This document shows positions 36,947-55,652 of a DNA stretch of 64,000 nt, piece by piece; position 1 is the stretch's first letter; every line of letters begins with the position of its first letter. The stretch is from Nitratireductor indicus C115 (GTDB lineage Bacteria; Pseudomonadota; Alphaproteobacteria; Rhizobiales; Rhizobiaceae). Where the stretch lies: positions 62,001-126,000 of the forward strand of contig NZ_AMSI01000011.1 in assembly GCF_000300515.1 (NCBI RefSeq), in the 5' to 3' direction. The notes beneath the pieces were generated by a model. That model did no database searches, was not told the origin of the DNA, and saw nothing but the letters and a program-made list of their open reading frames with translations. Both the position numbers and the translations under genes were made by a program.

Positions 36947-37912
36947 ATGGCTTATCGTCCGACGGACCAGATCATACACAAGGCCGCGTGGCTTTATTAT
37001 ACCCATGGCCTGCGCCAGGACGAGGTGGCGCAGCGTCTGAATATTTCACGCGCCTCCGTCGCGCTCTATCTGCGCAAGGCCCGCGAGGCCGGGATCGTCA
37101 ACATTTCCACGTCGACGCATCTGTTCAGCGACGACCGCCTCGCACGGCAGGTCGAGGATGCTTTCGGGCTTGAAACCGTATGGCTTACCGGCGACGAAGG
37201 CCTTTCCTCCAATCCGGCTGCCGAGATCCCCATGCTCGCGGCCAATGTCTTTCTCGAAATGGTGCAGAATGGCGACCGGGTCTGCGTTGCCTGGGGCCGT
37301 ACGGTCTATCAGATCGCCGATGCGATGAACCACGCCGACCGGGAAGACGTGACCGTGGTTGAAATGTGCGGCAATCTGGGCTCGCCCTATTCCTACCGGC
37401 CCGACCAGTGCACGATGGAAATCGCACGCCGGCTGAACGCCAAGGGTCTGAACTTTTATGCGCCGCTCGTACTGAGCAGCCGTGCGCTTGCAGAAGCCTT
37501 GCGTGCGGAACCGGTCATCCGTGAACAGCTCGACGGGATCAGCGCCTGCGACCTCGCCCTCTTCACCGTCGGCACGCTCGACAGCGACAGCCATGTCATC
37601 AAATGCGGGGCGCTCGGCCTCGATGAACTGGCGCAACTGAAGGCGATGGGCGCGACGGGCGTGATCGCCGGACAGATCATTACAGCCGATGGCACGCTGC
37701 TCGACTGCGATTACAACAAGCGCATGATCTCTGCGGATTTCGATGCCATCCGCGCCATCCCGAAGCGGCTTATGGTGGTGCAGGAAGATGAAAAGCTCGA
37801 ACCGTTGCGTGCGGCCATCTCAGGCCGGTTCTTCACGCATCTGGTGACGACCTCCACCATGGCGGCCGGGCTCCTTGCAAGCCATGCCGCCGCCAAACCC
37901 ACGCCGGCCTGA
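36947..37912 (+). CDS. SorC/DeoR-type sugar-binding transcriptional regulator
   Basis: A 321-residue regulator: an N-terminal helix-turn-helix (HGLRQDEVAQRLNISRASVA, about 18-37) and a large C-terminal sugar-phosphate-binding domain of the SorC/CggR type (GDRVCVAWGRTVYQIADAMN, VVEMCGNLGSPYSYRPDQCT, GAVIAGQ-like stretch near MGATGVIAGQ). Start chosen at the ATG 36947 with AGGAGG 6 bases upstream. It is followed 48 bases later by the aldolase-SDR gene, probably in one operon, and by the rest of the pentose locus. A phosphorylated pentose derivative is the likely inducer. Confidence 0.9.
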   Translation: MAYRPTDQIIHKAAWLYYTHGLRQDEVAQRLNISRASVALYLRKAREAGIVNISTSTHLFSDDRLARQVEDAFGLETVWLTGDEGLSSNPAAEIPMLAANVFLEMVQNGDRVCVAWGRTVYQIADAMNHADREDVTVVEMCGNLGSPYSYRPDQCTMEIARRLNAKGLNFYAPLVLSSRALAEALRAEPVIREQLDGISACDLALFTVGTLDSDSHVIKCGALGLDELAQLKAMGATGVIAGQIITADGTLLDCDYNKRMISADFDAIRAIPKRLMVVQEDEKLEPLRAAISGRFFTHLVTTSTMAAGLLASHAAAKPTPA

Positions 37913-37960
37913 GCGCCGCCGAAACCCCGAACACCAAAGTCCGAGACAAACAGGAAGACA

Positions 37961-40015
37961 ATGCAGAACCTCTGGAACGACAGCGAAGCCGAAAAGCTGG
38001 TTGCCGATTACGCGAAAAAGGGCGTTGCCCGCGACCTGGCCCTGCGGGTCTATACGACGCGCCTGTTGGGCGGCGAGCCCCGCCTCGTGCTGCATGGCGG
38101 CGGCAACACCTCGCTCAAATCCACGGCCACCGATATTCTGGGCCGCGAATATGACGTGCTTTGCGTGAAGGGCAGCGGCTGGGACATGGGCGTCATCGAG
38201 CCTGCCGGCCTGCCGGCGGTGAAAATGGACGCGCTTCTGGCCGCCCGCAAGCTGGACACGCTGGGCGACGAGGACATGGTTGCCATGCAGCGCGCCAATC
38301 TGATCGACCCCGGTTCGCCCAATCCGTCCATCGAAACGCTGCTCCACGCCTTCCTGCCGCACAAATTCGTCGACCACACCCATTCCACCGCGATCCTGGC
38401 TCTGGTCGACCAGGAAAACTCCGAGGAACTCTGCCAGAAGGCATTCGGCAAGCGCCTGGGTTTCGTGCCCTATATCAAGCCGGGCTTCGACCTCGCCAAG
38501 GCCGCCGCCGATGTCTATGACGCCGACCCGTCCGTCGAAGGCCTGATCCTCGACAAGCACGGCATCTTCACTTTCGCCGAGGATGCAAAAACCGCCTACA
38601 GCCTGATGATCGAATTCGTCACCATGGCGGAGGATTATGTGGCGAAGAACGGCAAGACACCGTTCAAACCGGTCACGCTACCCAAGGAACTGGCGACGCC
38701 CGCCGAGATCATGCCCTATCTGCGCGGCGCCATCGCCATCGATGAAGGTGACGGTAAGTTCGGGCGCATGGTCTGCGATTTCCGCACCTCGCCGAAGATT
38801 CTCGACTACGTCAATGCCGACAGCGCCGAGGAACTGGCAAAGCGCGGCGTTTCCACGCCCGACCTTTCCATCCGCATCAAGACAGGCCCCATGGTCCTGC
38901 CCGCGCCGGAAGCCGGCAAGCTCGATGAATACGGCAAGGTCATCCGCGAGAAGGTCGCGGAGTTCTCAGACCGCTACAAGGCGTATTTCGACACCAACAA
39001 TGCGGCGGACGATGTGGAGCGCACCATGCTCGACACCATGCCGCGCCTGACGCTGGTCCGCGGCCTCGGACTGATCGGCCATGGCCGCAGCCTGAAGGAA
39101 GCCAGGATCGCCGCGGATGTCGGCGAGATGCTGGTGGAGGCAGTAACCGGTGCGGAAGCCATCGGTTCGTTCCATCCTCTTGCTCTGTCCGATCTGTTCG
39201 AGCTCGAATACTGGTCGCTGGAACAGGCCAAGCTTGCCTCCAACAAGCCGAAGCCCCTGTCGGGCCAGGTCACGGTCGTGACGGGGGGCGCCGGTGCCAT
39301 CGGTGCTGCAACGGCAAAGTTGTTCGCTTCGCAGGGAGCCCATGTGGTCGTGCTCGACCTCGACGAAGAAAAGGCCAAGGCCGTGGCGAAGGCCGCAGGC
39401 AACGCCTCCATCGGCGTGGGCACCGACGTGACGGATCCGGCATCCGTACTCGCCGCCTTCGACAAGGCGCGCGACGTGTTCGGCGGCGTCGACATCGTGG
39501 TTTCCAATGCGGGTGCCGCCTGGGAAGGCAGGATCGGCGAACTGGACGACGCCATGCTGCGCAAGAGCTTCGAACTCAACTTCTTTGCCCACCAGAGCGT
39601 TGCGCAAAATGCGGTCCGGCTCTTCAAGCAGCAGGGAACCGGCGGCGTTCTGCTCTTCAATGCGTCCAAGCAGGCAGTCAATCCGGGAGCGAATTTCGGG
39701 GCCTATGGCCTGCCCAAGGCGGCAACGCTGTTCCTGTCGCGGCAATATGCGCTCGATTACGGCGCCATGGGCATACGCTCCAATGCGGTGAATGCCGACC
39801 GCATCCGTTCGGGCCTCCTGACGGACGACATGATCGCCAGCCGCTCGAAGGCGCGCGGTCTTTCGGAGAAGGATTATATGGGCGGTAATCTGCTGGGCCT
39901 CGAAGTGCGAGCCGAAGATGTCGCTCAAGCCTTCCTGCATCATGCGCTCGCCGAGCGCACCACGGCCGATGTGACGACCGTCGACGGCGGCAATATCGCC
40001 GCTGCGCTGCGCTAG
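37961..40015 (+). CDS. Bifunctional class II aldolase / short-chain dehydrogenase fusion
   Basis: A 684-residue two-domain enzyme. Residues 1-430 are a class II (zinc) aldolase: GGGNTS (46-51), KGSG (70-73), metal ligands H139 and H141 in HTHST, and H200. Residues 431-684 are an SDR: TGGAGAIG (441-448), NAG (516-518), Ser569, Tyr582 and Lys586; the Asp after strand 2 (VVVLDLD) suggests NAD. The nearest described relative is the rhizobial rhamnulose-1-phosphate aldolase/lactaldehyde dehydrogenase, but no rhamnose kinase or isomerase is here. With mtnK and mtnA nearby, the likely substrate is 5-methylthio- or 5-deoxyribulose-1-phosphate, cleaved to DHAP and an aldehyde that the SDR half could oxidise or reduce. 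Confidence 0.9.
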   Translation: MQNLWNDSEAEKLVADYAKKGVARDLALRVYTTRLLGGEPRLVLHGGGNTSLKSTATDILGREYDVLCVKGSGWDMGVIEPAGLPAVKMDALLAARKLDTLGDEDMVAMQRANLIDPGSPNPSIETLLHAFLPHKFVDHTHSTAILALVDQENSEELCQKAFGKRLGFVPYIKPGFDLAKAAADVYDADPSVEGLILDKHGIFTFAEDAKTAYSLMIEFVTMAEDYVAKNGKTPFKPVTLPKELATPAEIMPYLRGAIAIDEGDGKFGRMVCDFRTSPKILDYVNADSAEELAKRGVSTPDLSIRIKTGPMVLPAPEAGKLDEYGKVIREKVAEFSDRYKAYFDTNNAADDVERTMLDTMPRLTLVRGLGLIGHGRSLKEARIAADVGEMLVEAVTGAEAIGSFHPLALSDLFELEYWSLEQAKLASNKPKPLSGQVTVVTGGAGAIGAATAKLFASQGAHVVVLDLDEEKAKAVAKAAGNASIGVGTDVTDPASVLAAFDKARDVFGGVDIVVSNAGAAWEGRIGELDDAMLRKSFELNFFAHQSVAQNAVRLFKQQGTGGVLLFNASKQAVNPGANFGAYGLPKAATLFLSRQYALDYGAMGIRSNAVNADRIRSGLLTDDMIASRSKARGLSEKDYMGGNLLGLEVRAEDVAQAFLHHALAERTTADVTTVDGGNIAAALR

Positions 40016-40032
40016 GCGCTGGAAGCCTTCCT

Positions 40033-40080
40033 CCGTGGTTTGCGTTCGACAAGCTCATCACGGGGCAGGCTCACCATAAG
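40033..40080. repeat. Dispersed TTCGACAAGCTCA-type intergenic repeat
   Basis: CGTGGTTTGCGTTCGACAAG and CTCATCACGGGGCAGGCTCA are part of a repeat also seen at 46601 and 46772. Such TTCGACAAGCTCAxxATGAGG sequences are scattered between genes in many alphaproteobacteria. Confidence 0.55.
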
Positions 40081-40162: not shown

Positions 40163-40182
40163 CATGTCGATCGCGCCACGCC

Positions 40183-41238
40183 TCAGTCGCGCGGGGGAAG
40201 CGGCATCCAGGCAGGAACCGCCACATCCGCATGGGCGAACTGCGGCAGCTTCTGCGCCAGTTCTTCCATGTTCTTGATGTCTCCATCGTTCAGCGCCTTC
40301 TGGGTAATCAGCGTCGGCGGAACGATGACGCTCTTGCCCGGCTCCTCGCCGGCCAGAAGCATTGCCAGCGCACGCACAGAAACCTCGCCGACGACAGCCG
40401 GATTGGTCGCCGCCGTCGCGACCCAGGCGCTGCCCGGCTCGCGCATGGCCGAAATATCGGCGGTCGAAACGTCGGCCGAGTAAATCTTGATGCTGTCGGA
40501 AAGACCCGCCTCGTCGACAGCGATCTTCACACCCTTGGCGAATTCGTCATAGGGGGCGAACATCACCTGGATGTCGGGATTGGCAGTCACCACGGAACGG
40601 GCCTGGTTGGCGACGGAATTGGCAATCGGGTTGTCGAGCGTGCCGAACTGCGCCGCTTCCTCGATGCCCGGATACTTCTCCTTGAACTGGCGCCAGGTCT
40701 CGTCGCGACGGTCGAGGGGCGCGATACCGGCCACATACACGTATCCGGCTTTCCAGCTTTCGCCATTGTCCTCAATCGCCTGCTCGAGCGCGAGGCGAGC
40801 GAGGTCGCGATCAGACTGCTCGATCTGCGGAACGGCATCGTTTTCCACATTGACGTCGAAGGCGACGACCTTGATGCCCGCATCCACCGCGCGCTGGGCC
40901 GCTTCCTTCATGGATTCGGTCAGGCCGTGCTGGATGATGATGCCGTCGACGCCGAGCGCGATGGCCTGATCGACCATGTCGGCCTGCAGGGCTGCGTCCT
41001 GACGGCTGTCGAGCACGCGCAGATTGACGCCAAGCGCCTTTGCCTGCGCCTCGACACCCGACAGATAGGCCTGGAAGAAATCGCCGGTGGACAGATAACG
41101 TACCAGGGCGATCTCGACCTCACCCGGATTGTCGAAAGGCGCGGGCTTGTCCTGCGCGCCGGCGGCGGCAGGCAAAAGCATGGTCGCGCCGGCGAGTGCG
41201 GCGGCCATCTTGCCCAGGAGTCTGCGTGAAATTTCCAT
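40183..41238 (-). CDS. Sugar ABC transporter, periplasmic substrate-binding protein
   Basis: A 351-residue ribose-type (type 1, Peripla_BP_4) binding protein. A twin-positive N-terminus and signal peptide (MEISRRLLGKMAAALAGATM ... AAAGAQ) lead to EIALVRYLSTGDFFQAYLSG, QIVDQAIALGVDGIIIQHG-like core and a C-terminal domain (PDIQVMFAPYDEFAKGV). The ATG at 41238 has GGAGGAG 4 bases upstream. It belongs to the operon with the permease and ATPase and would deliver the pentose; methylthioribose or 5-deoxyribose is inferred from mtnK. Confidence 0.92.
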   Translation of the reverse strand: MEISRRLLGKMAAALAGATMLLPAAAGAQDKPAPFDNPGEVEIALVRYLSTGDFFQAYLSGVEAQAKALGVNLRVLDSRQDAALQADMVDQAIALGVDGIIIQHGLTESMKEAAQRAVDAGIKVVAFDVNVENDAVPQIEQSDRDLARLALEQAIEDNGESWKAGYVYVAGIAPLDRRDETWRQFKEKYPGIEEAAQFGTLDNPIANSVANQARSVVTANPDIQVMFAPYDEFAKGVKIAVDEAGLSDSIKIYSADVSTADISAMREPGSAWVATAATNPAVVGEVSVRALAMLLAGEEPGKSVIVPPTLITQKALNDGDIKNMEELAQKLPQFAHADVAVPAWMPLPPRD

Positions 41239-41344: not shown

Positions 41345-42388
41345 CTACCTGGCTTTCCTCCCAAGCAAGGCGAAGGTGAAAATCAGCGCGACGACAAGCA
41401 CCGCGCCCTTGACGAAATCCTGTGTGTAATAAGGAACATTCATCATGGTGAGCCCCTGCAGGAGCACGCCGACGAACAGAGCACCGATGGCCGTTCCAAA
41501 AGCATTCGGCTTGGCTGCGCCCAGAACGGCGAAACCGATGAGGGCTGCCGCCACCGCATCCAGAAGCAGATTGTTGCCGGAAGCGATGTCGCCGCGCCCC
41601 AGACGCGCCGCCAGAAGAATGCCGCCGATGGACGCAAAAACGCCCGAAATCACATAAGCCCAGATGCGGTAGGCCTTGACCGGCGCACCGGCGAACTCGG
41701 CCGCGCGCTCGTTGGAGCCCACGGCATACATCATGCGGCCGAAACGCGTGTATTCGAGAAAGAACCAGATGACGATGGCGAGTACGATCAGCACCACCAC
41801 GGAGGCAGGCACGAGATTGTCTATGAAGAGATCGAAGCGGTGCCGGCCCAGCGCCAGGAAGGCCTGGCTGAACTTGCCCTCGGCGGTGGAGCCGTCGGGC
41901 AGCGTCATGCCGGTGGCGATGGAACGGCCTTCCGTCGGAATACGCTGGAGGCCGATCAGCAGGAACATCATGCCAAGCGTGGCCAGAAGATCGGGCACGC
42001 GCATATAGCAGATGATCAGGCCGTTGATGAGACCGACCAGAGCGCCGATGGCGAGGCACACAAGGACCGCGACGAGCGCGTTCTGTTCCAGAACCACCAT
42101 CACATAGGCAGCAGCCATCATCGAGCTGGTGGCGATAGACCCGATGGAGAGATCAAACCCGCCGACAACGAGCGTCGCCGTGACGCCGAGCGCCAGGATG
42201 CCGGTGATGGAGACGGACTGCAGGATGAACACCGCGGCCTGAGGCGAGGTGAAACCGCGTGTGGCCAGAGAGAAGAAGATGATGAGCCCAACGAGAAGTG
42301 TCAAGAATCCGTAACGGATGGCGATCTCGCGCACCGACAGGCCGGAATTGCCTGCCATCGAAGTCTTTTCCGCCATGCGGCTTTCCAT
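41345..42388 (-). CDS. Sugar ABC transporter permease (ribose type)
   Basis: A 347-residue inner-membrane permease with about 9-10 hydrophobic segments. VGGFDLSIGSIATSSMMAAA, LIGLINGLIICYMRVPDLLA and SGVFASIGGILLAARLGRGD are RbsC-type motifs. It forms a transporter with the ATPase gene 3 bases upstream and the binding protein gene 106 bases downstream. A single permease gene fits the homodimeric RbsC arrangement. Confidence 0.92.
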   Translation of the reverse strand: MESRMAEKTSMAGNSGLSVREIAIRYGFLTLLVGLIIFFSLATRGFTSPQAAVFILQSVSITGILALGVTATLVVGGFDLSIGSIATSSMMAAAYVMVVLEQNALVAVLVCLAIGALVGLINGLIICYMRVPDLLATLGMMFLLIGLQRIPTEGRSIATGMTLPDGSTAEGKFSQAFLALGRHRFDLFIDNLVPASVVVLIVLAIVIWFFLEYTRFGRMMYAVGSNERAAEFAGAPVKAYRIWAYVISGVFASIGGILLAARLGRGDIASGNNLLLDAVAAALIGFAVLGAAKPNAFGTAIGALFVGVLLQGLTMMNVPYYTQDFVKGAVLVVALIFTFALLGRKAR

Positions 42389-42391
42389 TCC

Positions 42392-43909
42392 CTATAAGCT
42401 CCCTGCGGCTTCGCTGCGCTGGCCGGCAACCTCGGCCAGCAGGCGATCCATGTCCACGTCGGCGTTGCGATGCTCGCCGACAATCGTGTTTTCCGACATG
42501 ACGAGAATACGGTCGGCCGTCTCCAGCGCCTCGTCCAGCTCGGTGAGAAAAACAAGCGTCGCCCGCGCGCCGGCACCTTCGCGCAGCTTGGCCGCGATGT
42601 CATGCCGGGCGGCAATGTCGACGCCCTGAAACGGTTCATCGAGAATGAGCAGGCGCGAGGACTGAGTGAGCCAGCGCGCCACTGTCACCTTCTGCTGATT
42701 GCCGCCCGAAAGCGTCGCGAGATCATCGCGTTCGGTACGGCAAACGACCTTGAGATCCGCAATCTGGTCGCGCGCCACCTGTCTCTCGCGGCCCCTCCGC
42801 GTCACACCCATGCGCGAGAAACGCGGCAGGAACGGGAGGCTCATATTCTCATAGATGTTGAATTCCGGGACGATGCCGGTGGAACCGCGGTCCTTTGCAA
42901 CGAGAAAGACACCGTTGCGAATGGCATCGGCAGGTGTTGTCGGGCGGTAAGGCACGCCATCCAGCATCATGGAACCGGCCAGCGGCCGGTGAATGCCGAA
43001 CAGGGTTTCGGCAAGTTGCGTCTTGCCGACGCCGACAAGCCCCGTGACCGCAACCACCTCGCCCGCACCAAGCTGCATCGAGAAGGGTCGCGCGGACGGT
43101 GCCATGCGCAGCCCCTCGGCGGAAAACACCGGCTCATGCGCGTCGCGCACATCGATGCTGTGGCGGCCGAGATTCTGGCCGAGCATCGCGTTGACGGCGC
43201 CTTCGTAATCGAGTGGCTTTTCGTCGAACTGGCCGACAATGGCTCCATCGCGCAGGCTGACGATGCGGTCCGCCAGCCGGCGGATATCCGACATGCGATG
43301 CGATATATAGAGAATGGCGACGCCGCGTGCGCGCAGACGCTCGATCAATGCGAAAAGCCGCTCCGCCTCGTTGCTCGACAGCGAGGAGGTGGGCTCGTCC
43401 AGGATCATCACTTGCGGCTCGTGCGCCATCGCACGCGCGATGGCCACCATCTGCCGGTCGGCCAGGGAAAGATCGGTGACTTCCGCGCCGAGGTCGATGC
43501 CAAGCCCCATCCGCTCGGCCACCTCACGCGCCTCGCGGCGGATGCGGCGCGGATTGAAGAACAGCCCCCTGCCCGCTCCATTCAGCCGGTCGAGCACGAG
43601 GTTTGTTGCCACGTCCAGCGTGCCGACGACACCGTCATTGATGTTCTGGTGAACCGTGACGACACCGGCATGCATGGCCTCAGCGGGTGTTGTGGGGGAG
43701 AATGGCTTGTCGCCCAGCATCATCATGCCGCGATCCGCCTTGTGGACCCCGCTCATGATCTTCACGAGTGTGGACTTGCCCGCGCCATTGGCACCCATCA
43801 GGACGGTAACCTCACCGGCGCGCAAATCCAACCCGACACCGCGCAGAACGGCGTTCGGCCCAAAGGCCTTGGTCAAGCCAGCTATGCGAAAAACGGCTGT
43901 ATCGCCCAT
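42392..43909 (-). CDS. Sugar ABC transporter ATP-binding protein (ribose type, two NBDs)
   Basis: A 505-residue fused double nucleotide-binding protein. First half: Walker A GANGAGKST, signature LSLADRQMVAIARAM and Walker B MILDEPTSSLSS. The second half has a degenerate Walker A (LVGVGKTQLAETLFG) but signature LSGGNQQKVTVARWL, the usual RbsA asymmetry. The ATG at 43909 has GGAGGAG just upstream; an open frame continues nearly 400 codons beyond it but is a shadow of mtnK. It heads the transporter operon, divergent from mtnK. Confidence 0.93.
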   Translation of the reverse strand: MGDTAVFRIAGLTKAFGPNAVLRGVGLDLRAGEVTVLMGANGAGKSTLVKIMSGVHKADRGMMMLGDKPFSPTTPAEAMHAGVVTVHQNINDGVVGTLDVATNLVLDRLNGAGRGLFFNPRRIRREAREVAERMGLGIDLGAEVTDLSLADRQMVAIARAMAHEPQVMILDEPTSSLSSNEAERLFALIERLRARGVAILYISHRMSDIRRLADRIVSLRDGAIVGQFDEKPLDYEGAVNAMLGQNLGRHSIDVRDAHEPVFSAEGLRMAPSARPFSMQLGAGEVVAVTGLVGVGKTQLAETLFGIHRPLAGSMMLDGVPYRPTTPADAIRNGVFLVAKDRGSTGIVPEFNIYENMSLPFLPRFSRMGVTRRGRERQVARDQIADLKVVCRTERDDLATLSGGNQQKVTVARWLTQSSRLLILDEPFQGVDIAARHDIAAKLREGAGARATLVFLTELDEALETADRILVMSENTIVGEHRNADVDMDRLLAEVAGQRSEAAGSL

Positions 43910-43944: not shown

Positions 43945-43969
43945 CATTTGTCAACATGATTGACAAATG
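43945..43969. promoter_or_regulatory. 25-bp perfect palindrome in the transporter/mtnK divergent promoter
   Basis: CATTTGTCAA (43945-43954) and TTGACAAATG (43960-43969) are perfect arms around a 5-base spacer (CATGA). It lies 36 bases before the transporter ATG and 175 before mtnK. The half-site resembles those at the SorC regulator promoter (36900), so it is the likely operator of the locus regulator. No gene lies in the surrounding 43910-44143. Confidence 0.65.
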
Positions 43970-44143: not shown

Positions 44144-45409
44144 ATGAAAGAAAACGCCTTCGAGGCCCTGACCGTGGAGACGCTGCCGGGACGACTGGGA
44201 CCGGTCGCGGCCATCGCGGAGCGCATCGGCGCCGACAGCAATCTGTGGAAGGTGCGCGAGGTGGGCGACGGCAACCTCAATCTCGTCTTCATCGTGGAGG
44301 GGGAGAAGGGAACCGTCATCGTGAAGCAGGCGCTGCCTTATGTGCGGCTTGTCGGCGACAGCTGGCCCCTGCCCCTGAAACGCTCCTTCTTCGAATATCA
44401 CGCCCTCAGCCGCCAGGCGGAACGCGCGCCTGGCACGGTGCCGGCAATCCATCATTTCGACGAGGCCCAGGCGCTGATCGTCATGGAGTTCCTGTCGCCG
44501 CACATCATCCTGCGCCGCGCCCTGATCGAGGGCCGCAGGCTGCCGAAGATCGCGCGCGATCTCGGCCTGTTCATGGCGCACACGCTGTTCCGCGGCTCCG
44601 ATCTCTCCATGAAGGCCTCCGAGCGCAAGGCCGATCTGGCGCTGTTCGCTGACAATGTGGAGCTTTGCGACATCACGGAAAGCCTTGTCTTCACCGATCC
44701 CTATTTCGAAGCGCCGATGAACCGTCACACGCCGGGCCTCGAAGCGCTCGTGAAGGAATTGCGCGCCGACCGCGACCTCAAGGTGGAAGCGCAGCGCATG
44801 AAGCACCAATTCGCAACGCGCGCCGAAACGCTGGTGCATGGCGATCTCCATTCCGGCTCCGTGATGGTGACGGACACCGAGACCCGCGTTATCGACCCCG
44901 AGTTCGCCTTCTACGGCCCCATGGCCTTCGATGTCGGCATGCTGCTTGCGAACTACTGGATGTCCTTCTTCTCGCAGCGCGGGCACGAAAGCGCGGGAAG
45001 CCGCGAGGAGATGCGCGCCTATCTGCTTGGGGTCATAGACGAGACGTGGAACACCTTCCGCAACGAATTCGCCAGGTTGTGGCACACCGAGCGCAAGGGC
45101 ATGCTCTATGACGCAGCACTTTATGAAGCGCGGAACGACGGCCTAGCCTCGGAGCAGGCGCTCAACCATGTGATCCACGACATCTGGACGGACATGCTGG
45201 GCTTTGCCGGCGTGGAGATGCACAGACGCATACTGGGCCTCGCCCACAATGCCGATTTCGAAGACATCGCGGACGAGGCGCAGCGCGCCTCCTGCGAGGC
45301 GGCTGCGCTGAAATTCGGCCGCCATATCATCGTCAACCGCAACAAGATCCAGTCGCTCGCCGAACTCGACATGCTGGCGCAGGCGCTGGACCAGGGGAAA
45401 CTGTCATGA
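44144..45409 (+). CDS. mtnK: S-methyl-5-thioribose kinase
   Basis: ATP-dependent phosphorylation of methylthioribose to methylthioribose-1-phosphate. The 421 residues match the family. VHGDLHSGS (HGDLH 232-236) and [18 protein letters not shown] (DPEF 251-254) are the APH-type catalytic and metal motifs in their MtnK-specific form. [13 protein letters not shown] is the nucleotide loop region. The ATG at 44144 has AAAGGGAGGAAA upstream. Its stop codon overlaps the mtnA start (ATGA), so the two are coupled. The kinase may also accept 5-deoxyribose, as MtnK-like DrdK does elsewhere. Confidence 0.95.
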
Positions 45410-47605: not shown

Positions 47606-47671
47606 GATGATTCAAGTGCCTCGCAGATTGATTCAGCTATTTTGAATAACTGTTTGTTTTAAGAATCGAAC

Positions 47672-48478
47672 TCACCAAGTCGAACGGGCGCTGACACCGC
47701 CGTCGACCGTGAGATCGGCGCCGCTGACCCAGCGCGCCGCATCCGAGATCAGGAACAGGACGGCATCACCGATATCCTGCGGCATGCCCAGCCGACCAAG
47801 CGGCGCGGCCTCCTTCCAGCGTCCCACGCCTTCGGGCCATCCTTCCTCGATCCCGTCGCGATGGATCAGCCCCGGCGACACCGAGTTAACACGGATGCCG
47901 AGCGCGCCGAGCTCAAGCGCAGCAGCCTTGGTGAACATCAAAACCGCAGCCTTGGACGCGGCATAGTGGGCGTGGCCGGGCGCAGGCTGATGCCCTTCGA
48001 TGGAGGCGATGTTGACCACCGCGCCGCCCCTGCCCTTTTCCTTCGCGTGGGCGGCGAAGGCGCGGGTCAGAAGAAAAGGCGCCGCTGTGTTGATCGCCAT
48101 CATCTGCGACCAGCCATCGGGCGTGATGTCCAGGAGGCCGGCGACCGGTTGATGGCCGGCATTGTTCACGATTGCATCGAGCGTACCGAAGGCCTCGGTC
48201 GCCCCCTTCACGAGGGCTGTGACCGCCGCCTCATCCGAGAGATCGCCGCCCAGAGCCACGGCCTTGCCGCCGATATCGGCCTCGATCTCCTGGACAAGCG
48301 CTTCGGCGGTGTCACGATTGCCGTGATAATGGCAGACGACATTCGCTCCCGCCTCGGCGAGGCGGCGCGCGATGCCTCCACCGATGCCTCCGCTCGATCC
48401 GGTGACGATGACGGTGCGGCCCGTAAGATCGAGCAGGCTGGCGACAGACGGGATGGTTGCGGGAATAGTGGCAGGCAT
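47672..48478 (-). CDS. Short-chain dehydrogenase/reductase (SDR 2 of the locus)
   Basis: A 268-residue classical SDR with TGSSGGIG (26-33), NNAG, Ser159, Tyr172 and Lys176 (HYAASKAAVLMF). The residues after strand 2 (CHYHGNRDTAEA) lack the NAD-specific Asp and have His/Asn/Arg, favouring NADP(H). Its ATG is one base after the phosphorylase stop codon, so it is in the same transcript. Paired with SDR 1 it may form an oxidation/reduction couple, or the two may act on different aldehydes. Confidence 0.87.
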   Translation of the reverse strand: MPATIPATIPSVASLLDLTGRTVIVTGSSGGIGGGIARRLAEAGANVVCHYHGNRDTAEALVQEIEADIGGKAVALGGDLSDEAAVTALVKGATEAFGTLDAIVNNAGHQPVAGLLDITPDGWSQMMAINTAAPFLLTRAFAAHAKEKGRGGAVVNIASIEGHQPAPGHAHYAASKAAVLMFTKAAALELGALGIRVNSVSPGLIHRDGIEEGWPEGVGRWKEAAPLGRLGMPQDIGDAVLFLISDAARWVSGADLTVDGGVSARSTW

Positions 48479-48479: not shown

Positions 48480-49316
48480 TCAGGCGTCCTTCAGGGCAGG
48501 CAGGAGATGGGTCAGGATCGCTTCGATCTTGCGACCGGCGACCACGGCATTGGCGAAGACCTCATCGATGGTGTCCGGCTGTTGGTCGGGACCGCCCGTG
48601 GCCTTGTTCGTGATGGCGGACAAGCCGACCACCGGCAAACCTGCATGGGATGCGGCAATCACCTCTGTGACCGTGGACATGCCGACAGCGTCCGCACCCG
48701 AAGCCCTGAAATAGCGGCGTTCGGCAGAAGTCTCGAGCGACGGCCCGAGCACGCCGGCATAGATTCCGCGGCGCAGTGCAACACCGGCATTCTGTGCAGC
48801 CTCGTTCGCCGTCACCAGAAGTTCGGGTGTGTAAGCGCGCGACATGTCGGGAAAACGGATGCCGATGGCATCGTCGTTGGGACCGACCAGCGGATTGAGA
48901 CCGGTGAAATTGATGTGATCCTCGATCAGCATCACGTCGCCCGGCTCGTAATCGGGATTGAGCGAACCGGCGGCGTTGGTGACGACCAGCTTTTCCGCGC
49001 CCAGCTTCTGAAGGAGGTAAACCGCCAGCGCGATATCGCGCGGCGCCCAGCCCTCATAGAGGTGCAGGCGCCCCTGCATCATCACCACGCGGACGCCATG
49101 CAGCGAGCCGATGACGAAGGCGCCCTTGTGACCCGGCGCGGTGGAGACGGGGAAACCCTCGACCTCCGCATAGGGGATGGTGATGGCATCCTCCACTTCA
49201 TCGGCGAGCTGGCCAAGGCCGGAGCCGAGCATCACCGCCACGGGTGCAGGAGCGCCCGCCCGTGACTTGATGGATGCATGGGCGCGCTCAAGACGCGCTA
49301 ACTGGCTTTCGGTCAT
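48480..49316 (-). CDS. Purine nucleoside phosphorylase with 6-oxopurine specificity residues
   Basis: Trimeric-type PNP (278 residues): phosphate loop GSGLGQ, HLYEGW, and VTNAAGSLNPDYEPGDVMLI. Glu195 (GPSLETSAE) and Asn237 (AITNKATGG) correspond to Glu201 and Asn243 of mammalian PNP, which select 6-oxopurines (inosine, guanosine). True MTA phosphorylases replace the Asn with Asp, so this enzyme should not cleave adenosine or MTA directly. Downstream of an MTA/adenosine-deaminase-like gene, it fits methylthioinosine or 5'-deoxyinosine as substrate, as described for the Pseudomonas MTI phosphorylase. The product is a 5-substituted ribose-1-phosphate for MtnA. Confidence 0.88.
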   Translation of the reverse strand: MTESQLARLERAHASIKSRAGAPAPVAVMLGSGLGQLADEVEDAITIPYAEVEGFPVSTAPGHKGAFVIGSLHGVRVVMMQGRLHLYEGWAPRDIALAVYLLQKLGAEKLVVTNAAGSLNPDYEPGDVMLIEDHINFTGLNPLVGPNDDAIGIRFPDMSRAYTPELLVTANEAAQNAGVALRRGIYAGVLGPSLETSAERRYFRASGADAVGMSTVTEVIAASHAGLPVVGLSAITNKATGGPDQQPDTIDEVFANAVVAGRKIEAILTHLLPALKDA

Positions 49317-49344: not shown

Positions 49345-50664
49345 TCAGGCGATCGCAGCGGCGATGCGCGGCACGAGGCGGTTCACCTCGTCCATGGTTT
49401 CCTCGATGGCGTGCAGCGTCAGCACACCGTCGCGCACCACCTGCCTTCCGCCGACGAAGACATGGCGCACGTCGGATTTCGCCGTCGAATAGACAAGGTG
49501 GGTGACGGGGTCGAACATCGGCACGGCATGGGGCCTGCGAATGTCGACAAGGATCATGTCGGCGAACTTTCCGGTCTCGAGCGAGCCGATGCGATCTTCC
49601 GCGCCGAGAGCCCGTGCGCCGGCCATGGTGGCCATGGCGAGAGCCTGCGGCGTGGACACGGCATCCGCGCTCTGGCGCGCGCCCTTGTGCAGGGTGGCAG
49701 CAAGCCGGAGTGCCATCCACATGTCGAGATCGTTGCCGCTGATCGCGCCGTCGGTGCCGAGAGCGACGTTCACGCCAGCCTCCAGCATGTCGGGAACGCG
49801 CGCGATGCCGGAGGCGAGCTTCAGGTTCGAGACCGGATTGTGCGAGACGGTCGCGCCCGTGCGGGCGAGGATTTCGATCTCCTCGTCATCGAGATGAACG
49901 CAATGGGCAAGTGTGGTTTTCTCGTCGAGCAGGTCGAGATAATCGAGATGGCGGATTACCGAACTGCCGTAGCGGCCGCGTATATCGTCCTGTTCGGCCT
50001 TGGTTTCGGCGGCGTGGGTGCTGAAAAGCCCGCCATGTCGGTCGGCAATCTCGCGCGCCGTCTTCAGGTTTTCCGGCCCGACCGTATAGGCGCCATGCGG
50101 GAGCGTTGCTGGAAAGACATCCTCCGCCTTGCCGAATTCCTCGAAGAAGGCTTCCGCATCCGCTATGCGGGTCTGAAGGTCGCCGCCGGTCACGCCCGGA
50201 CCGTCGAAGAAGAACCCGCCCGTGGAAACGCGCATGCCGACCTTGCGCGCCGCGCGCACCGTTTCAACCGGATACCAGAACATGTCCATGACGCTGGTGA
50301 CGCCCGATAGCAGAAGCTCGGCGCATCCGAGCACACTCCCCAGATGAGAGGTCCGCGGATTGAGGATCGCTCCTTCAGCCTGCCACACCTTTTGCAACCA
50401 GGGTTCCAGCGGCAGGTCCTCCACGAGACCGCGAAACAGGCTGTCGGCGGCATGGCAATGGGCGTTCACGAGACCCGGCATCAAGATATGTCCGGCGGCA
50501 TCCACCACCGTTTTCGCAGAGGCCGCGTCCTGCTCCAGCTCCGAAGACTGGCCAAGGCGCGCTATGCGTCCGCCGCGCACGACGAGGCCTCCGTCGCGAA
50601 GCACCGTGCCTGCCTCATCGCAGGTCACCACGATCGCATTGCGGATCACGAGGTCGGCTGTCAT
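49345..50664 (-). CDS. Amidohydrolase, MTA/S-adenosylhomocysteine deaminase-like
   Basis: A 439-residue metal-dependent deaminase of the TRZ/ATZ group. Ligands and catalytic residues: H69 and H71 in NAHCHAADS, H217 and E220 in STHAAETKAE, H254 in TLAHCVHLDD, and D305 in GTDGAISG. The family includes MTA/SAH deaminases such as Pseudomonas PA3170 and also guanine- or triazine-deaminating enzymes, so the substrate is inferred from context: the next gene is a 6-oxopurine phosphorylase. Its ATG overlaps the upstream permease stop (ATGA). The 5' frame continues into an unrelated frame and is not part of the gene. Confidence 0.88.
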   Translation of the reverse strand: MTADLVIRNAIVVTCDEAGTVLRDGGLVVRGGRIARLGQSSELEQDAASAKTVVDAAGHILMPGLVNAHCHAADSLFRGLVEDLPLEPWLQKVWQAEGAILNPRTSHLGSVLGCAELLLSGVTSVMDMFWYPVETVRAARKVGMRVSTGGFFFDGPGVTGGDLQTRIADAEAFFEEFGKAEDVFPATLPHGAYTVGPENLKTAREIADRHGGLFSTHAAETKAEQDDIRGRYGSSVIRHLDYLDLLDEKTTLAHCVHLDDEEIEILARTGATVSHNPVSNLKLASGIARVPDMLEAGVNVALGTDGAISGNDLDMWMALRLAATLHKGARQSADAVSTPQALAMATMAGARALGAEDRIGSLETGKFADMILVDIRRPHAVPMFDPVTHLVYSTAKSDVRHVFVGGRQVVRDGVLTLHAIEETMDEVNRLVPRIAAAIA

Positions 50665-51581
50665 CTGGTCTCTCCCCTGGCGCGCCTTGCCCGCCACCAG
50701 GACAGCGCGACAAGCACGATAAGCGTGGCAAGATACGGCATCATGTCGGTGAATTGCTGCGCAAGGCCGAGCCCCTGCACGCGGAAAGACAGGCTGTCGA
50801 CGGCGCCGAACAGAAGCGCGATGAAGAACAAAGGCCACGGCCTGCCCCTCGTGAGAAGAACCGCGACGACCGCGATCCAGCCGCGCCCGGCGCTCATATT
50901 CTCCACGAACAGGTTCACATTGGCGATGGAAAGCTGGGCGCCGCCCAGACCGCAAAGCGCGCCGCAGGCGAGAAGCGCCACAAGCTGGACGCGGCGCGGC
51001 TCCACGCCGCCCGCCCGCAATGCTTCGGCATTTTCGCCCGCCGCGCGAATACGCAGGCCAAGCCGATGGCGGGCGAGGAAGACATGCATGAGCGGCACGC
51101 ACAAGAGCGCCACGTAGAAGAGCGCCGACTGCCCGCTCAGGATCTGGCCGACAAACGGAATATCCTCGATCAGAGGAAGGCGCACCGGGCCGAACCCGAC
51201 AATGCCCGCATCGCTGAAAGCGCCCGTCACATCGAAGATCGCCCGCAAGAGGAAGGTGGTCAGCCCCGCCGCCAGCAGGTTGATCGCGATGGAGACGACA
51301 ATTGAATCGCCGCCGCGCCGCAGGTTGAACTCGGCGAAGACCAGGCCCAACGCCATGCCCGCCAGCATCGCCGCCAGCGCGCCCACATAGGGTGAGCCGG
51401 AAAAATAGGATCCCAGAACCGCAGCGAAGGCGCCCATCAGAAGGAAGCCCTCGAGCGCGATATTGAAGACGCCAGCGCGCTCGCACAGGGCTCCTCCGAG
51501 CGCCGCAAGGAGGATCGGCGTCACGAAACGGGGTATGGAGGCGGCAAAGGACGGATCCAGCAGAAGATCAAGCATCGCCAT
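50661..51581 (-). CDS. Nucleoside ABC transporter permease (second)
   Basis: A 306-residue permease of the BMP-type nucleoside importer family (YufQ/NupC-like). About 8-10 hydrophobic helices; ALGGALCERAGVFNIALEGF and FNLRRGGDSIVVSIAINLLA are characteristic of this paired-permease family. The start overlaps the stop of the first permease by 14 bases; an alternative ATG two codons later is possible. Confidence 0.9.
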   Translation of the reverse strand: MAMLDLLLDPSFAASIPRFVTPILLAALGGALCERAGVFNIALEGFLLMGAFAAVLGSYFSGSPYVGALAAMLAGMALGLVFAEFNLRRGGDSIVVSIAINLLAAGLTTFLLRAIFDVTGAFSDAGIVGFGPVRLPLIEDIPFVGQILSGQSALFYVALLCVPLMHVFLARHRLGLRIRAAGENAEALRAGGVEPRRVQLVALLACGALCGLGGAQLSIANVNLFVENMSAGRGWIAVVAVLLTRGRPWPLFFIALLFGAVDSLSFRVQGLGLAQQFTDMMPYLATLIVLVALSWWRARRARGETR

Positions 51582-52626
51582 CCCCCCTGCCTGCCCGCGA
51601 AGACAATGCGCCTGAAACGCGGCTTGCCACGAACAGGATGATCACGGCCTGGATGACCAGGGCGATTTCCTTGGGCACGCCGGCGGCGCGCTCCATGCCG
51701 GCAGCCCCCGTCTGCACCGCTGCGAAGAAGAAGCCGGAAATCGGCACGGCCCAGGGCACCATGCCGACCAGCAGGACGGCGATGATGCCCGTCCACGCAT
51801 AGAGCGGCTGCACCAGCATGCCGTCGATATAGCGATGATGTATGCCGAAGACGGCAATGGCCCCGACAAGACCAGCGATTGCGCCGCTGATGGCGAGCGT
51901 CTGCAATGTGAGACGGCGCACCGGCAGGCCGACCGTACGGGCGAAATCGGCAGAAAGCCCGTTCAGCCGTGTGTGATAGCCATGCAGCGTGCCATAGCTG
52001 TAGACCAGCGCGAAGGCGGTGGCCGTGAGTGTGAAGAGGATGCCGATATCGAGCCGCGTGCCCGGGAAATAGGCGAACCAGGTTGCCTGCGGCACCAGAT
52101 AGGACTGCACCATGCCGGACGGTACGTCACGGAAGGGATGAGCCACCAGATAGGAGCCGATATAGCGGATCGGGTAATTCAGAAGAAGCGAGCCGACCAG
52201 AAGCGGCACGCCCATATAAAGCTGGAGCACACCCGCCAGAAGCGCCCACGCCGCCCCTGCCAGCATGGCCCCGGCAATCGCGGCGGCGAGCACGACAAGC
52301 GGCGGTCCCGGCAGCAGAATGGCGATCAATCCCGCGGCGAGGCCGCCGGCCACCAGTTGCCCTTCACCACCGATGTTGAAAAGGCCGGCCCTGAAGCTCA
52401 GCATCACGGAGATCGCCATGCCGACGATAAGGGCGGAGCGGCTCAGCGTCGCCATCAGATAGGCATGGCGGCGGCCACCGAAAGCCCCCTGCCAGAAACC
52501 GGACAGGGCTTCGCCAACCGGCGCTCCTACGAACAGGAGCAGTGCCAGAACGATTGACGCGATCCAAAGAACGGTCCAGAGCCAGGGCAAGACGTTCCGC
52601 AGGTTCAATGCACCGGTTTCCATCAT
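51568..52626 (-). CDS. Nucleoside ABC transporter permease (first)
   Basis: A 352-residue partner permease (YufP-like) of the same importer. AGLFNIGGEGQLVAGGLAAG and GVLQLYMGVPLLVGSLLLNY are family motifs; nine or ten membrane segments. The ATG overlaps the ATPase stop codon (52623) by 4 bases. Order in the operon is binding protein, ATPase, permease, permease. Confidence 0.9.
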   Translation of the reverse strand: MMETGALNLRNVLPWLWTVLWIASIVLALLLFVGAPVGEALSGFWQGAFGGRRHAYLMATLSRSALIVGMAISVMLSFRAGLFNIGGEGQLVAGGLAAGLIAILLPGPPLVVLAAAIAGAMLAGAAWALLAGVLQLYMGVPLLVGSLLLNYPIRYIGSYLVAHPFRDVPSGMVQSYLVPQATWFAYFPGTRLDIGILFTLTATAFALVYSYGTLHGYHTRLNGLSADFARTVGLPVRRLTLQTLAISGAIAGLVGAIAVFGIHHRYIDGMLVQPLYAWTGIIAVLLVGMVPWAVPISGFFFAAVQTGAAGMERAAGVPKEIALVIQAVIILFVASRVSGALSSRAGRGDGDA

Positions 52627-54128
52627 GCGGCCTTTCCACGCGACATCATCAGTGCGCCGACGTCTTCGCGGTTTGCCTCGCCGCCGCTGACCTCGCCCGA
52701 AATCGCGCCGTCATACATCACGAGAATGCGGTCTGAGAGCGCGATCACCTCATCGAGCTCGGTGGAAATCAGCAATATGGCGTGACCGCTGTCACGCATG
52801 CGCATCAGCTCGCCATGGATGAAATCGATAGCGCCGATATCGACGCCCCAGGTCGGGTTTTCGGCAACCACCACAGCTGTGTTGCGGGTGAGCTCACGCC
52901 CGACCACAAGCTTCTGCTTGTTGCCGCCGGACATGGTGGAAGCAGCCGCCGAAGGCCCCGCAACGCGGATGCGGTAATCTTCGATGATTGCGCGGGCAAA
53001 ACGCATCATCGCGCCGTGTCTGAGAAAAGGGCCGGTCGTGAATGCGCTGCGGTCGTCGCGGCCGGCATTGGCGTTTTCGGATACCGATGCGCCGAGCGCC
53101 AGCCCCATGCGCTGGCGATCCTCGGGAATATAGCTCATACCGTGGGCGCGGCGCGCGGCGACATCCAGCGTCTCCACCGACTGGCCGCAAAGCGAAATGC
53201 CACCTGAAAGAAGCGGATCGAGCCCTGTCAGCCCGCGCACCAGCTCGGACTGGCCGTTGCCGCTGACGCCCGCAATACCGACGATCTCGCCAGCCCTCAG
53301 ATCGAAGGAAACCGGGCCGACGGGCCGGCCGCGCCGGGCAATGGTGGCATCGCGCACGGACAGAACCACATCGCCAGCGGCCTGCGCCTTTCGGGTGCGG
53401 GCTTCCGGCAATTCACCGCCAACGATGCCGCGCGCAATTTCCTGTCGCGACGTCTCGTCAAGAAGCGAGGAACGCACCAGGCGGCCAGCACGCATGACGC
53501 TGACACGATCGGCGATCTCCATGACTTCATCGAGCTTGTGGGTGATGATGACGATCGATTTTCCCGCAGCACGAAAATTGCGCAGCGTGTCGAACAGCCG
53601 GTCCTTTTCCTGCGGGGTCAGGACCGCCGTGGGTTCGTCAAGGATCACCAGTTCGGCCTCGCGGTAAAGCACCTTGAGGATTTCAACCGTCTGGCGCTGG
53701 CTGACCGAAAGCCGCCCGACCTCGCGGGTGAGATCGACGGCAATGCCGTGTTCGGCGGCAATCGCATCCAGCCGGCGGCGGGCTGCCGCAAAATCCACGA
53801 AGCCGAAACGGCCAACCGGCTCCGCGCACAGGACGATGTTTTCCAGCACCGTCATCGTATCCTGCAGCATGAAGTGCTGGTGCACCATGCCAAGCCCGCT
53901 GGCGATTGCATCCTGAGGGGAAGACCAGCGCCGCTCCACACCGTCGAGAACGACAGTCCCCGCTGCCGGGCGGACAAGGCCGAACAGGAGGTTCATCAGC
54001 GTCGATTTGCCGGCTCCGTTTTCGCCGACGAGGGCATGTATCTCGCCCGGTTCGATACCGAGCGAGACATCGTCCACCGCAGTCACCGGGCCGAAGCGGA
54101 CGGTGATGCCATTCAACTCGACGCGCAT
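52623..54128 (-). CDS. Nucleoside ABC transporter ATP-binding protein (two NBDs)
   Basis: A 501-residue double-NBD ATPase (YufO-like). First Walker A GENGAGKST, signature LSVSQRQTVEILKVL and Walker B VILDEPTAVLT; second half GVSGNGQSELVRGL and signature MSGGNKQKLVVGREL. It powers the paired permeases. It lies 12 bases after the binding-protein gene in one operon. Confidence 0.93.
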   Translation of the reverse strand: MRVELNGITVRFGPVTAVDDVSLGIEPGEIHALVGENGAGKSTLMNLLFGLVRPAAGTVVLDGVERRWSSPQDAIASGLGMVHQHFMLQDTMTVLENIVLCAEPVGRFGFVDFAAARRRLDAIAAEHGIAVDLTREVGRLSVSQRQTVEILKVLYREAELVILDEPTAVLTPQEKDRLFDTLRNFRAAGKSIVIITHKLDEVMEIADRVSVMRAGRLVRSSLLDETSRQEIARGIVGGELPEARTRKAQAAGDVVLSVRDATIARRGRPVGPVSFDLRAGEIVGIAGVSGNGQSELVRGLTGLDPLLSGGISLCGQSVETLDVAARRAHGMSYIPEDRQRMGLALGASVSENANAGRDDRSAFTTGPFLRHGAMMRFARAIIEDYRIRVAGPSAAASTMSGGNKQKLVVGRELTRNTAVVVAENPTWGVDIGAIDFIHGELMRMRDSGHAILLISTELDEVIALSDRILVMYDGAISGEVSGGEANREDVGALMMSRGKAA

Positions 54129-54140
54129 TGATCCAGCCGC

Positions 54141-55151
54141 CTATTTGGCGAACATCGGGTCTTCCAGCTTAAGGGAACCATCCTCGATGCTGGCCGCCAC
54201 CTCGCGCATCTTCGCTGCGACCTCGGGGTGATCGGCGATCAGGCAGCCCGAACCGGCAATATTGTCCTCTTCGAGCGCCATGGCCGACATGCCGCCTTCC
54301 TTCAGGCCGAGCGAAACGGTGAGCTGCTTTCCGCCCTCCAGAATTTCACCGATGGCCTGGACCATTGCCGTGTCCACATGCTTGAGCGTCATGTCGACGA
54401 TGTGGCCGGGTGCATTGGGGCATTGGTTCACATCGACGGAGAAGGCCTTGAAATCCTTCTCCTTGGCGGCCTCGAAGACGCCGAAATCGCCACCGGCCGT
54501 GGCCGTGAAAATAAGGTCAGCGCCGGCGGCGTTCATCGCGACGGCCTGTTCCTTGGCGCGGACCGGATCAGCAAAGGGGCTTTCGCCACCGACCCAGCGA
54601 ATGTCGACGCTGGCATCGGGCTTCACCGATTTCACACCCTGTGCATAGCCATCCGTGTAGCGGTGCAGGAACGGAATATCGAGTGCGCCCACCACGCCGA
54701 CCTTGCCGGTCTCGGTCATCATGGCGGCAGCGACCCCCATCAGGTAGCTCGCCTCATACTCGCGAAACACCGCGCAATGGACGTTCTCCGGGCGGTCGTC
54801 GATGCACTGGTCGATCATGAGAAACTGGATGTCGGGCGCCGTCGGCGCGACTTCGCGGATGATATCGTTGAACTCGAACCCCAGGAGAACGACAATGTCG
54901 GCGCCCTCATTGACCGCCGCATTGACATTTTCCAGGCGCTCAGCCGCCGTGCGGCTTTCATAGGTCTCGACGTCCGCACCGTATTTCTCGCCGGCGGCCT
55001 CAATGCCCGTCTGGCCCATCTTGAGGAAGGCATTCACGCCGAGCGCGTCGGGAGAGACATAAACGAACAGCTTGTCTGCCGCCGATGCCGCACCCGTCAT
55101 GGCTGCTGCACCGACAAGGCCTGCCGCCAACCATTTCGCCAAAACCTTCAT
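54141..55151 (-). CDS. BMP-family nucleoside-binding protein
   Basis: A 336-residue periplasmic binding protein of the BMP/PnrA group, which bind purine nucleosides. From the ATG at 55151 it has a signal peptide ([23 protein letters not shown]) without an obvious lipobox Cys. VVLLGFEFNDIIREVAPTAP, VHCAVFREYEASYLMGVAAA, GGESPFADPVRAKEQAVAMN and GADLIFTATAGGDFGVFEAA follow the family. It heads the operon that also encodes the deaminase, phosphorylase and two SDRs, so its ligand is probably a purine nucleoside. Confidence 0.92.
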   Translation of the reverse strand: MKVLAKWLAAGLVGAAAMTGAASAADKLFVYVSPDALGVNAFLKMGQTGIEAAGEKYGADVETYESRTAAERLENVNAAVNEGADIVVLLGFEFNDIIREVAPTAPDIQFLMIDQCIDDRPENVHCAVFREYEASYLMGVAAAMMTETGKVGVVGALDIPFLHRYTDGYAQGVKSVKPDASVDIRWVGGESPFADPVRAKEQAVAMNAAGADLIFTATAGGDFGVFEAAKEKDFKAFSVDVNQCPNAPGHIVDMTLKHVDTAMVQAIGEILEGGKQLTVSLGLKEGGMSAMALEEDNIAGSGCLIADHPEVAAKMREVAASIEDGSLKLEDPMFAK

Positions 55152-55268
55152 GAACGCCACTCCCTCACAAAACCAGTTATCCGGCTTGACATTCTGGAGC
55201 AGGCGCAAGCCTTTTACAATTGTCAGCGGCGCTGATGATTGTGGAAGATATCGATATAAGGATGCCCG

Positions 55269-55652
55269 ATGCTGCCGAATTGGTTCGTCGCCCGTGAGGA
55301 AAAGCCCGAGTTCTGGACCGAAGAACGCTGCTTCATCACAGAACTCATGAATACAGACGCTTCACCTGAAACCTCGCTTGCCGTGGCACGGGTGGAGGCA
55401 GGGGTGACGACGCAGCTCCACAGGCTCGAAGGGATCTGCGAACGCTACGTGGTGCGCAAAGGTGAAGGCATCGTGGAAATCGATGGTGTGCGGCAGTTTC
55501 TGTCGGTCGGCGATCAGGCGATCATTCCTCCGGGGGCCGCGCAGCGCATCGCCAACACGGGTTCGACCGACCTTGAGTTCTATTGCGTTTGCACGCCGCG
55601 CTTTGTGCCGGAAAGCTATGTCGATCTGGAGACAGGCGGTGTGGACGCCTGA
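55269..55652 (+). CDS. Cupin domain protein
   Basis: A 127-residue single-domain cupin, ATG at 55269 with AAGGATGCC upstream. VARVEAGVTTQLHRLEGICERYVV and GDQAIIPPGAAQRIANTG are the two cupin motifs, with the metal His reduced to one clear pair (TQLHRLEGICERY). Too short for acireductone dioxygenase. It is divergent from the nucleoside importer operon with a 117-bp shared promoter, so its role may be linked (sugar isomerisation or aldehyde handling), but it could be unrelated. Confidence 0.8.
   Translation: MLPNWFVAREEKPEFWTEERCFITELMNTDASPETSLAVARVEAGVTTQLHRLEGICERYVVRKGEGIVEIDGVRQFLSVGDQAIIPPGAAQRIANTGSTDLEFYCVCTPRFVPESYVDLETGGVDA

Follow-up and report, generated by a model that had tools for sequence, protein, structure and literature searches.

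A probable two-entry variant of the dihydroxyacetone phosphate shunt, with a fused aldolase-dehydrogenase, in a locus of Nitratireductor indicus

We analyzed a 64-kb stretch of DNA from Nitratireductor indicus C115 (contig NZ_AMSI01000011.1, positions 62,001 to 126,000; hereafter the window). At 36947..55652 it holds genes for a methylthioribose kinase (mtnK) and a methylthioribose-1-phosphate isomerase (mtnA), together with a nucleoside deaminase, a purine nucleoside phosphorylase (PNP), two importers and a class II aldolase fused to a short-chain dehydrogenase/reductase (SDR), here called aldSDR. Considering the evidence described below, we think it likely that the locus encodes a two-entry variant of the dihydroxyacetone phosphate (DHAP) shunt, converging on MtnA, for imported 5'-deoxynucleosides and 5-deoxy/5-methylthio-pentoses. 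Open reading frame (ORF) calling and family searches located all genes named in the earlier note on this DNA, plus three that it had left unnamed: a pair of SDR genes (46820-48478) and one for a small cupin (55269-55652) (Table 1). We divide the locus into block 1 (SorC-type regulator, aldSDR, ribose-type importer, MtnK, MtnA) and block 2 (nucleoside importer, deaminase, PNP, SDR1, SDR2, cupin). In block 1, sorC and aldSDR lie on the plus strand and SBP1-perm1-atp1 diverge from mtnK-mtnA; the block 2 genes SDR1, SDR2, PNP, deaminase, two permeases, ATPase and SBP2 all lie on the minus strand, and the cupin gene diverges from SBP2.

Table 1. Features of the locus in window coordinates, with the family model, score or other basis of each assignment.
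Feature	Position	Strand	Basis or remark
Palindrome TTGACTTTTGTCAA, putative operator before sorC	36901..36914	.	Sole exact TTGACNNNNGTCAA in the 64-kb window
SorC/DeoR-type sugar-binding regulator (sorC)	36947..37912	+	PF04198, 163.2 bits; kept beside aldSDR in relatives
aldSDR, fused class II aldolase and NAD-type SDR, 684 aa	37961..40015	+	NF006192, 1109.2 vs cut-off 639 bits
SBP1, ribose-type substrate-binding protein	40183..41238	-	PF13407
perm1, ribose-type permease	41345..42388	-	Family search
atp1, ribose-type ATPase	42392..43909	-	ORF calling and family search
25-bp palindrome CATTTGTCAA-CATGA-TTGACAAATG, atp1/mtnK divergent promoter	43945..43969	.	Half-sites as in the sorC palindrome
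mtnK, methylthioribose/deoxyribose kinase	44144..45409	+	TIGR01767, 508.6 vs cut-off 275 bits
mtnA, methylthioribose-1-phosphate isomerase	45406..46515	+	TIGR00512, 432.3 vs cut-off 279 bits
SDR1	46820..47605	-	Family searches
SDR2	47672..48478	-	Family searches
PNP, 6-oxopurine nucleoside phosphorylase, Ile250 at the 5'-OH His position	48480..49316	-	TIGR01700, 303.9 vs 293.35 bits
Deaminase (amidohydrolase), 5'-methylthioadenosine/5'-deoxyadenosine type by likeness	49345..50664	-	Nearest solved structures
Nucleoside-type importer permease	50661..51581	-	Matches below model cut-offs
Nucleoside-type importer permease	51568..52626	-	Matches below model cut-offs
Importer ATPase (atp2)	52623..54128	-	Matches below model cut-offs
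SBP2, BMP-type substrate-binding protein	54141..55151	-	Family search
Degenerate palindrome TTTACAATTGTCAG, SBP2/cupin divergent promoter	55213..55226	.	P 0.043 in 300 single-base shuffles
Small cupin	55269..55652	+	PF07883

The earlier note had proposed a genome survey for conserved linkage of these genes, and their linkage does exceed chance: block 1 is conserved in relatives, and block 2 is patchier yet linked. The aldSDR survey comprised 78 loci from genome records, 76 of them with the aldolase part at the thresholds used (in L080-L082 the aldolase half alone matched). Many contigs are short, so the linkage counts are lower bounds. Among the 76 loci, at least 50 hold mtnA, at least 30 both mtnK and mtnA, and at least 16 mtnP-apt-mtnA; none of mtnA, mtnK and mtnP was detected in 21. 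SBP1 occurs in 48 of all fetched loci, 47 of which also carry mtnK, and is missing from 11 of the 58 mtnK loci; every SBP2 locus (12/12) also holds a block-2 type PNP. SDR1 and SDR2 accompany this PNP in 13 and 20 of 22 loci, respectively, and the solved relatives of SDR2 are general SDRs. The cupin gene of relatives adjoins the deaminase, SBP2, mtnA or aldSDR. As a separate observation, the 16 mtnP-apt-mtnA loci (alphaproteobacterial, among L040-L077, mostly uncultured) combine mtnP, apt, mtnA and aldSDR in a kinase-free 5'-methylthioadenosine (MTA) set of another kind, and some also hold a glutathione-transferase-like gene.

Presence and absence were scored across 247 genomes of the family, with a deaminase threshold of E <= 1e-80 and P values that ignore kinship. 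The deaminase was found in 22 genomes, aldSDR in 91, mtnA in 100 and mtnK in 97. mtnA is present in 20 of the 22 deaminase genomes (Fisher 4e-7) and in 83 of the 91 with aldSDR; 17 of the 22 deaminase genomes carry aldSDR, and in 10 of the 22 the two genes lie on one contig at most 15 kb apart. Six of the 100 mtnA genomes, from five genera, have no mtnK at the threshold used, and all six carry the deaminase (hypergeometric 3e-5, kinship uncorrected), in each case next to a block-2 type PNP. Two genomes, G055 and G241, are fragmentary drafts, and on contig C81 of G055 the deaminase and aldSDR genes are present a second time, interrupted by in-frame stops, along with a partial mtnA. Gene order in several loci joins mtnA directly to block 2: L120 and L121, both cut by contig ends, read aldSDR-sorC-cupin / SBP2-atp2-perm3-perm2-deam-PNP-SDR2-SDR1-mtnA with no mtnK detected, and L117 resembles them (block 2, mtnA and aldSDR, no mtnK detected). 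L131 reads importer-deaminase-PNP-SDR2-mtnA, and L162 importer-PNP-mtnA without the deaminase. Two further loci come from genomes with block-2-like genes and mtnA and with neither mtnK nor aldSDR; there, an 850-aa protein is encoded next to mtnA (L156 9389-11938, L157 1545-4094), which in L156 is a fusion of a flavin adenine dinucleotide oxidoreductase and GcvT.

One palindrome recurs at the promoters of both blocks in several relatives. It precedes sorC in 11 of 13 scanned block-1 loci (missing in L016 and L069; L007 and L124, both among the 13, are one genome), and TTGTCAA-N5-TTGACAA is likewise present in 11 of the 13 (missing in L063 and L069). Exact TTGACAATTGTCAA is found in the SBP2/cupin promoter of the genus mate L124, between the deaminase and cupin-aldSDR in L118 and L119, and before cupin-aldSDR in L134, and TTGACATTTGTCAA stands before cupin-mtnA-aldSDR in L117. 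Elsewhere the block-2 palindrome carries one mismatch (L125, L128, L130, L135), two (L120, L126, L129) or three or more (L121, L131, L137, L139, L162).

The block-2 PNP differs from housekeeping PNPs at the position taken as human PNP His257, which we read from an alignment of the window PNP with those of 21 loci. This 5'-site residue is hydrophobic in 22 of 22 block-2 PNPs (18 Ile, 3 Leu, 1 Val), histidine in all 30 sampled housekeeping PNPs (the 30 best-scoring, from 210 genomes that gave a match) and valine in 19 of 19 MtnP; two PDB PNP rows carry His and, in 6tk9, Glu, and the L162 PNP, outside that alignment, has Val. His257, Asn243 and Glu201 are described as binding-site residues of human PNP (PMC4308819), and V233 and V236 of human methylthioadenosine phosphorylase (MTAP) as contacting methylthioribose (PMC5738077). 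The assumed 6-oxopurine-site Asn and Glu are kept in every block-2 (22/22) and housekeeping (30/30) PNP. These residues are suggestive of a base site that calls for the inosine form, which the neighboring deaminase would supply, combined with a hydrophobic 5' site, and they hint at phosphorolysis of methylthioinosine or 5'-deoxyinosine. If methylthioinosine is the substrate, the model scores, which place this PNP outside the MTAP/methylthioinosine phosphorylase (MTIP) family, would imply a separate origin. The N. indicus genome codes for a separate housekeeping PNP elsewhere. The deaminase has as its nearest solved structures 4dyk/4gbd (264 bits), which we take to be the Pseudomonas aeruginosa methylthioadenosine deaminase, and 4f0r (263.5). 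In L118 (7505-7786), a remnant of a block-2 type PNP, the last 94 residues, lies beside an intact-looking deaminase gene.

Among named relatives, those nearest to aldSDR come mostly from Nitratireductor (87-90% identity). His 139, 141 and 200 of the Zn site, Tyr582 and Lys586 of the SDR site and Asp466 of the nicotinamide adenine dinucleotide (NAD) site are conserved in all 84 aligned rows, and the SDR Ser569 in 83. The rhamnulose-1-P aldolase/lactaldehyde dehydrogenase RhaEW shares this domain order and these catalytic residues (PMC3870299). Unlike RhaEW, aldSDR is linked to mtn rather than rha genes and has Glu for Asp at the assumed catalytic acid (Glu in all 11 displayed non-rhamnose rows, Asp in both rhamnose rows). 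Identity to rhamnose-annotated relatives is 33-34%, and a midpoint-rooted quick-mode tree separates 81 rows, including five labelled polyol-type, from RhaEW of rhamnose-annotated loci (L175, L178). A role in rhamnose catabolism was rejected on the basis of these neighbors and a missed cut-off for the RhaEW model TIGR02632 (488.9 vs 567.75 bits). The DHAP-shunt ending put forward in the earlier note is supported by comparative evidence, with the amendment that the fused aldolase is a relative of RhaEW and not of Ald2/DrdA; the locus holds no short class II aldolase of the Ald2/DrdA type, and the fused NF006192 protein stands alone there. The best sign that aldSDR would cleave after MtnA is an exchange of the two aldolases: L164 and L166 come from genomes that lack aldSDR, and there mtnA is followed by a short class II aldolase.

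Other homologues occur in different surroundings. Fused proteins of ~50% identity belong to operons of sugar/polyol type that contain no mtn genes (L142, L143, L144, L177). Class II aldolases that lack the SDR half and share 42-49% identity with the aldolase half of aldSDR stand behind Lsr-annotated, autoinducer-2 (AI-2) transporter genes in Sinorhizobium (L176 6001-7251) and behind similar ATP-binding cassette (ABC) genes in Celeribacter, Martelella and Pacificibacter (L080-L082). These SDR-less aldolases may act on an AI-2 breakdown product.

RhaEW formed lactate and DHAP with NAD+, formed neither without it and was inactive with NADH (PMC3870299). Because aldSDR is a relative of RhaEW and not of Ald2/DrdA, an acid end is by analogy likelier than an aldehyde or alcohol, which would make the product methylthioacetate or acetate. 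In the single case of L117, aldSDR is followed by a gene that resembles ADP-forming acetate-CoA ligase and has an acetyltransferase end (16188-18866), which fits an acetate product. The same pathway could instead end with the SDR half reducing the aldehyde to methylthioethanol or ethanol, a version that differs only in this last step; 2-(methylthio)ethanol in R. palustris (PMC5893883) and ethanol in aerobic E. coli (PMC10986504) speak for it. We regard it as unlikely, considering the inactivity of the characterized fused relative with NADH and the NAD-type Asp in all 84 rows. It is highly improbable, in our estimation, that the substrates are ordinary ribonucleosides and ribose, with PNP giving ribose-1-phosphate, the MtnA homologue ribulose-1-phosphate, and the aldolase DHAP and glycolaldehyde, then glycolate. 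A ribulose-1-phosphate aldolase family exists (NF053831) and the first importer is ribose-type, but MtnK and MtnA score far above the methylthioribose kinase and isomerase cut-offs, the 5' histidine of PNP is replaced, and aldSDR is paired with mtnP-apt-mtnA in other lineages.

The N. indicus genome (4.99 Mb, 99.96% complete) contains four PF00596 proteins, none above the mtnB cut-off; three sit on other contigs, and the only one in the locus is the fused NF006192 protein. It gave no match to acireductone dioxygenase (mtnD), and its best mtnC match scores 32.1 bits against a cut-off of 128.1. The absence of mtnB-E claimed earlier is thus borne out for mtnB, mtnC and mtnD, and universal methionine salvage was set aside on these grounds; no search was made for mtnE. 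An MtnN-type nucleosidase is encoded elsewhere (TIGR01705, 366.4 vs cut-off 152.2 bits), and nine of 11 radical S-adenosylmethionine (SAM) matches lie above cut-off. Radical-SAM enzymes are possible sources of 5'-deoxyadenosine.

Gene content, linkage, the presence/absence pattern, residue changes and shared palindromes are direct observations; the reactions, substrates, transport steps and regulation in the following scheme are all inferred from them. In the first entry, 5-methylthioribose or 5-deoxyribose would be imported by the ribose-type ABC importer, or produced inside the cell by the MtnN-type nucleosidase, and then phosphorylated by MtnK. In the second, the BMP-type importer would take up a 5'-deoxynucleoside (MTA and/or 5'-deoxyadenosine), the deaminase would convert it to its inosine form, and phosphorolysis by a PNP adapted to a hydrophobic 5' group would yield the same 1-phosphate with no ATP spent. 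MtnA would isomerize the 1-phosphate to the ribulose-1-phosphate form. aldSDR would cleave this to DHAP and methylthioacetaldehyde or acetaldehyde and, as in RhaEW, would use NAD+ to oxidize the aldehyde to the acid. Both blocks would be under the control of the SorC-type regulator. Convergence of two entries on MtnA, as the earlier note had it, is supported by the comparative evidence of presence/absence, linkage and PNP residues.

A number of observations weigh against this scheme. One of the four genus members searched (G040) has no deaminase; in G064, G195 and G214 the gene is distant from aldSDR, and the deaminase of the window reaches no NCBIfam cut-off (best scores 386 vs 540 for NF006549 and 320.8 vs 522 for NF005557). 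Five of the 22 deaminase genomes lack aldSDR (G065 and G150 hold deaminase, PNP, SDR2 and mtnA without it), two lack mtnA (G161, G197), and eight of the 91 aldSDR genomes lack mtnA. Deaminase and PNP are not always together, since beside the deaminase G152 has only the last 94 PNP residues and G068 has no PNP. Seventeen mtnA genomes have no aldSDR; among the 14 whose mtnA/mtnK surroundings were drawn, a class II aldolase follows mtnA in two, and the other neighbors are mostly unannotated. Some fused aldolase-SDR homologues sit in polyol-type loci, the block-2 palindrome in the window carries two mismatches, and SDR1, SDR2 and the cupin have no step in the proposed pathway. General purine phosphorylase models recognize the PNP, as does, among specific ones, the inosine/guanosine model; the methylthioinosine phosphorylase model NF006599 does not (72.0 vs 223 bits). 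Plasmodium PNP, in which a His lies close to the 5' group of either nucleoside, takes methylthioinosine as readily as inosine (PMC3885546), and the bond from His257 of human PNP to the 5'-OH was not persistent in simulations (PMC4308819); the 5' residue is therefore a hint and not proof.

The inconstant presence and position of the deaminase, and the PNP model match, would also suit a reading in which block 1 is a pentose DHAP shunt and block 2 an ordinary operon for purine nucleoside uptake, neighbors by chance. We consider such a coincidence quite unlikely, since mtnA ends the block-2 operon in L120, L121, L131 and L162, the deaminase is present in all six mtnA genomes without mtnK, the 5' histidine is replaced in all 22 aligned block-2 PNPs, both blocks share a palindrome in several relatives, and a housekeeping PNP exists separately.

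The two-entry scheme resembles several known systems. As in the DHAP shunt known from R. rubrum, R. palustris and E. coli (MtnN-MtnK or MtnP, MtnA, Ald2), the kinase and isomerase families are the same, a class II aldolase domain follows MtnA, and no mtnB, mtnC or mtnD was found; the locus differs in the fused aldolase-SDR in place of Ald2, the deaminase and inosine-type phosphorylase entry, two ABC importers and a SorC-type regulator. The 5-deoxyribose salvage by DrdK-DrdI-DrdA follows the same kinase-isomerase-aldolase logic, with four published clusters that include putative sugar transporters, but DrdA is a short FucA-like aldolase, and the excerpted text describes no deaminase-PNP entry (PMC6079011). 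P. aeruginosa likewise deaminates and then phosphorolyses, by methylthioadenosine deaminase and methylthioinosine phosphorylase, whereas the phosphorylase here belongs to the inosine/guanosine PNP family. The earlier note knew of no description of a locus with both importers and the fused aldolase. Already published are the DHAP shunt in kinase and MtnP forms, 5-deoxyribose clusters, the MtnR repressor of E. coli and the operon it controls, which includes a putative transporter, and clusters of kinase, isomerase and aldolase genes accompanied by putative sugar transporters (PMC6079011, PMC12632272); the combination of deaminase-PNP entry, fused aldolase and two importers appears to be new. The open-licence papers listed for this combination, at the level of titles and opening abstract lines, showed neither a deaminase-PNP entry nor a fused aldolase beside mtnK/mtnA, though other papers may. 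The locus is real, conserved and functionally coherent, and probably a new variant of a known pathway.

A more far-reaching version strikes us as doubtful. Here the deaminase-PNP route would be a third, independently evolved DHAP-shunt entry, in which loss of the 5'-OH histidine turned an inosine-type PNP to 5'-deoxy/methylthio-inosine; the fused enzyme would make the acid, SDR2 and the cupin would be dedicated steps, perhaps in methanethiol release, and bacteria would grow on external MTA or 5'-deoxyadenosine as a source of carbon, purine and sulfur. In the MTA-isoprenoid shunt, a methylsulfurylase of the cupin type has a similar task (PMC5893883). Beyond the cupin gene, a 126-aa ORF at window 55748-56128, before panC, has no NCBIfam match, and the 64-kb window gave zero Rfam RNA matches at gathering score.

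MTA and 5'-deoxyadenosine arise as by-products when SAM is used, and were long regarded as waste. A locus with two importers and two routes that converge would point to relatives of N. indicus taking up both compounds as food. The analysis names two easily assayed candidates, a PNP with changed 5' specificity and a fused aldolase-dehydrogenase for 5-deoxy/methylthio-ribulose-1-phosphate, and recognition of aldSDR would help annotators separate its family from the rhamnose enzymes.

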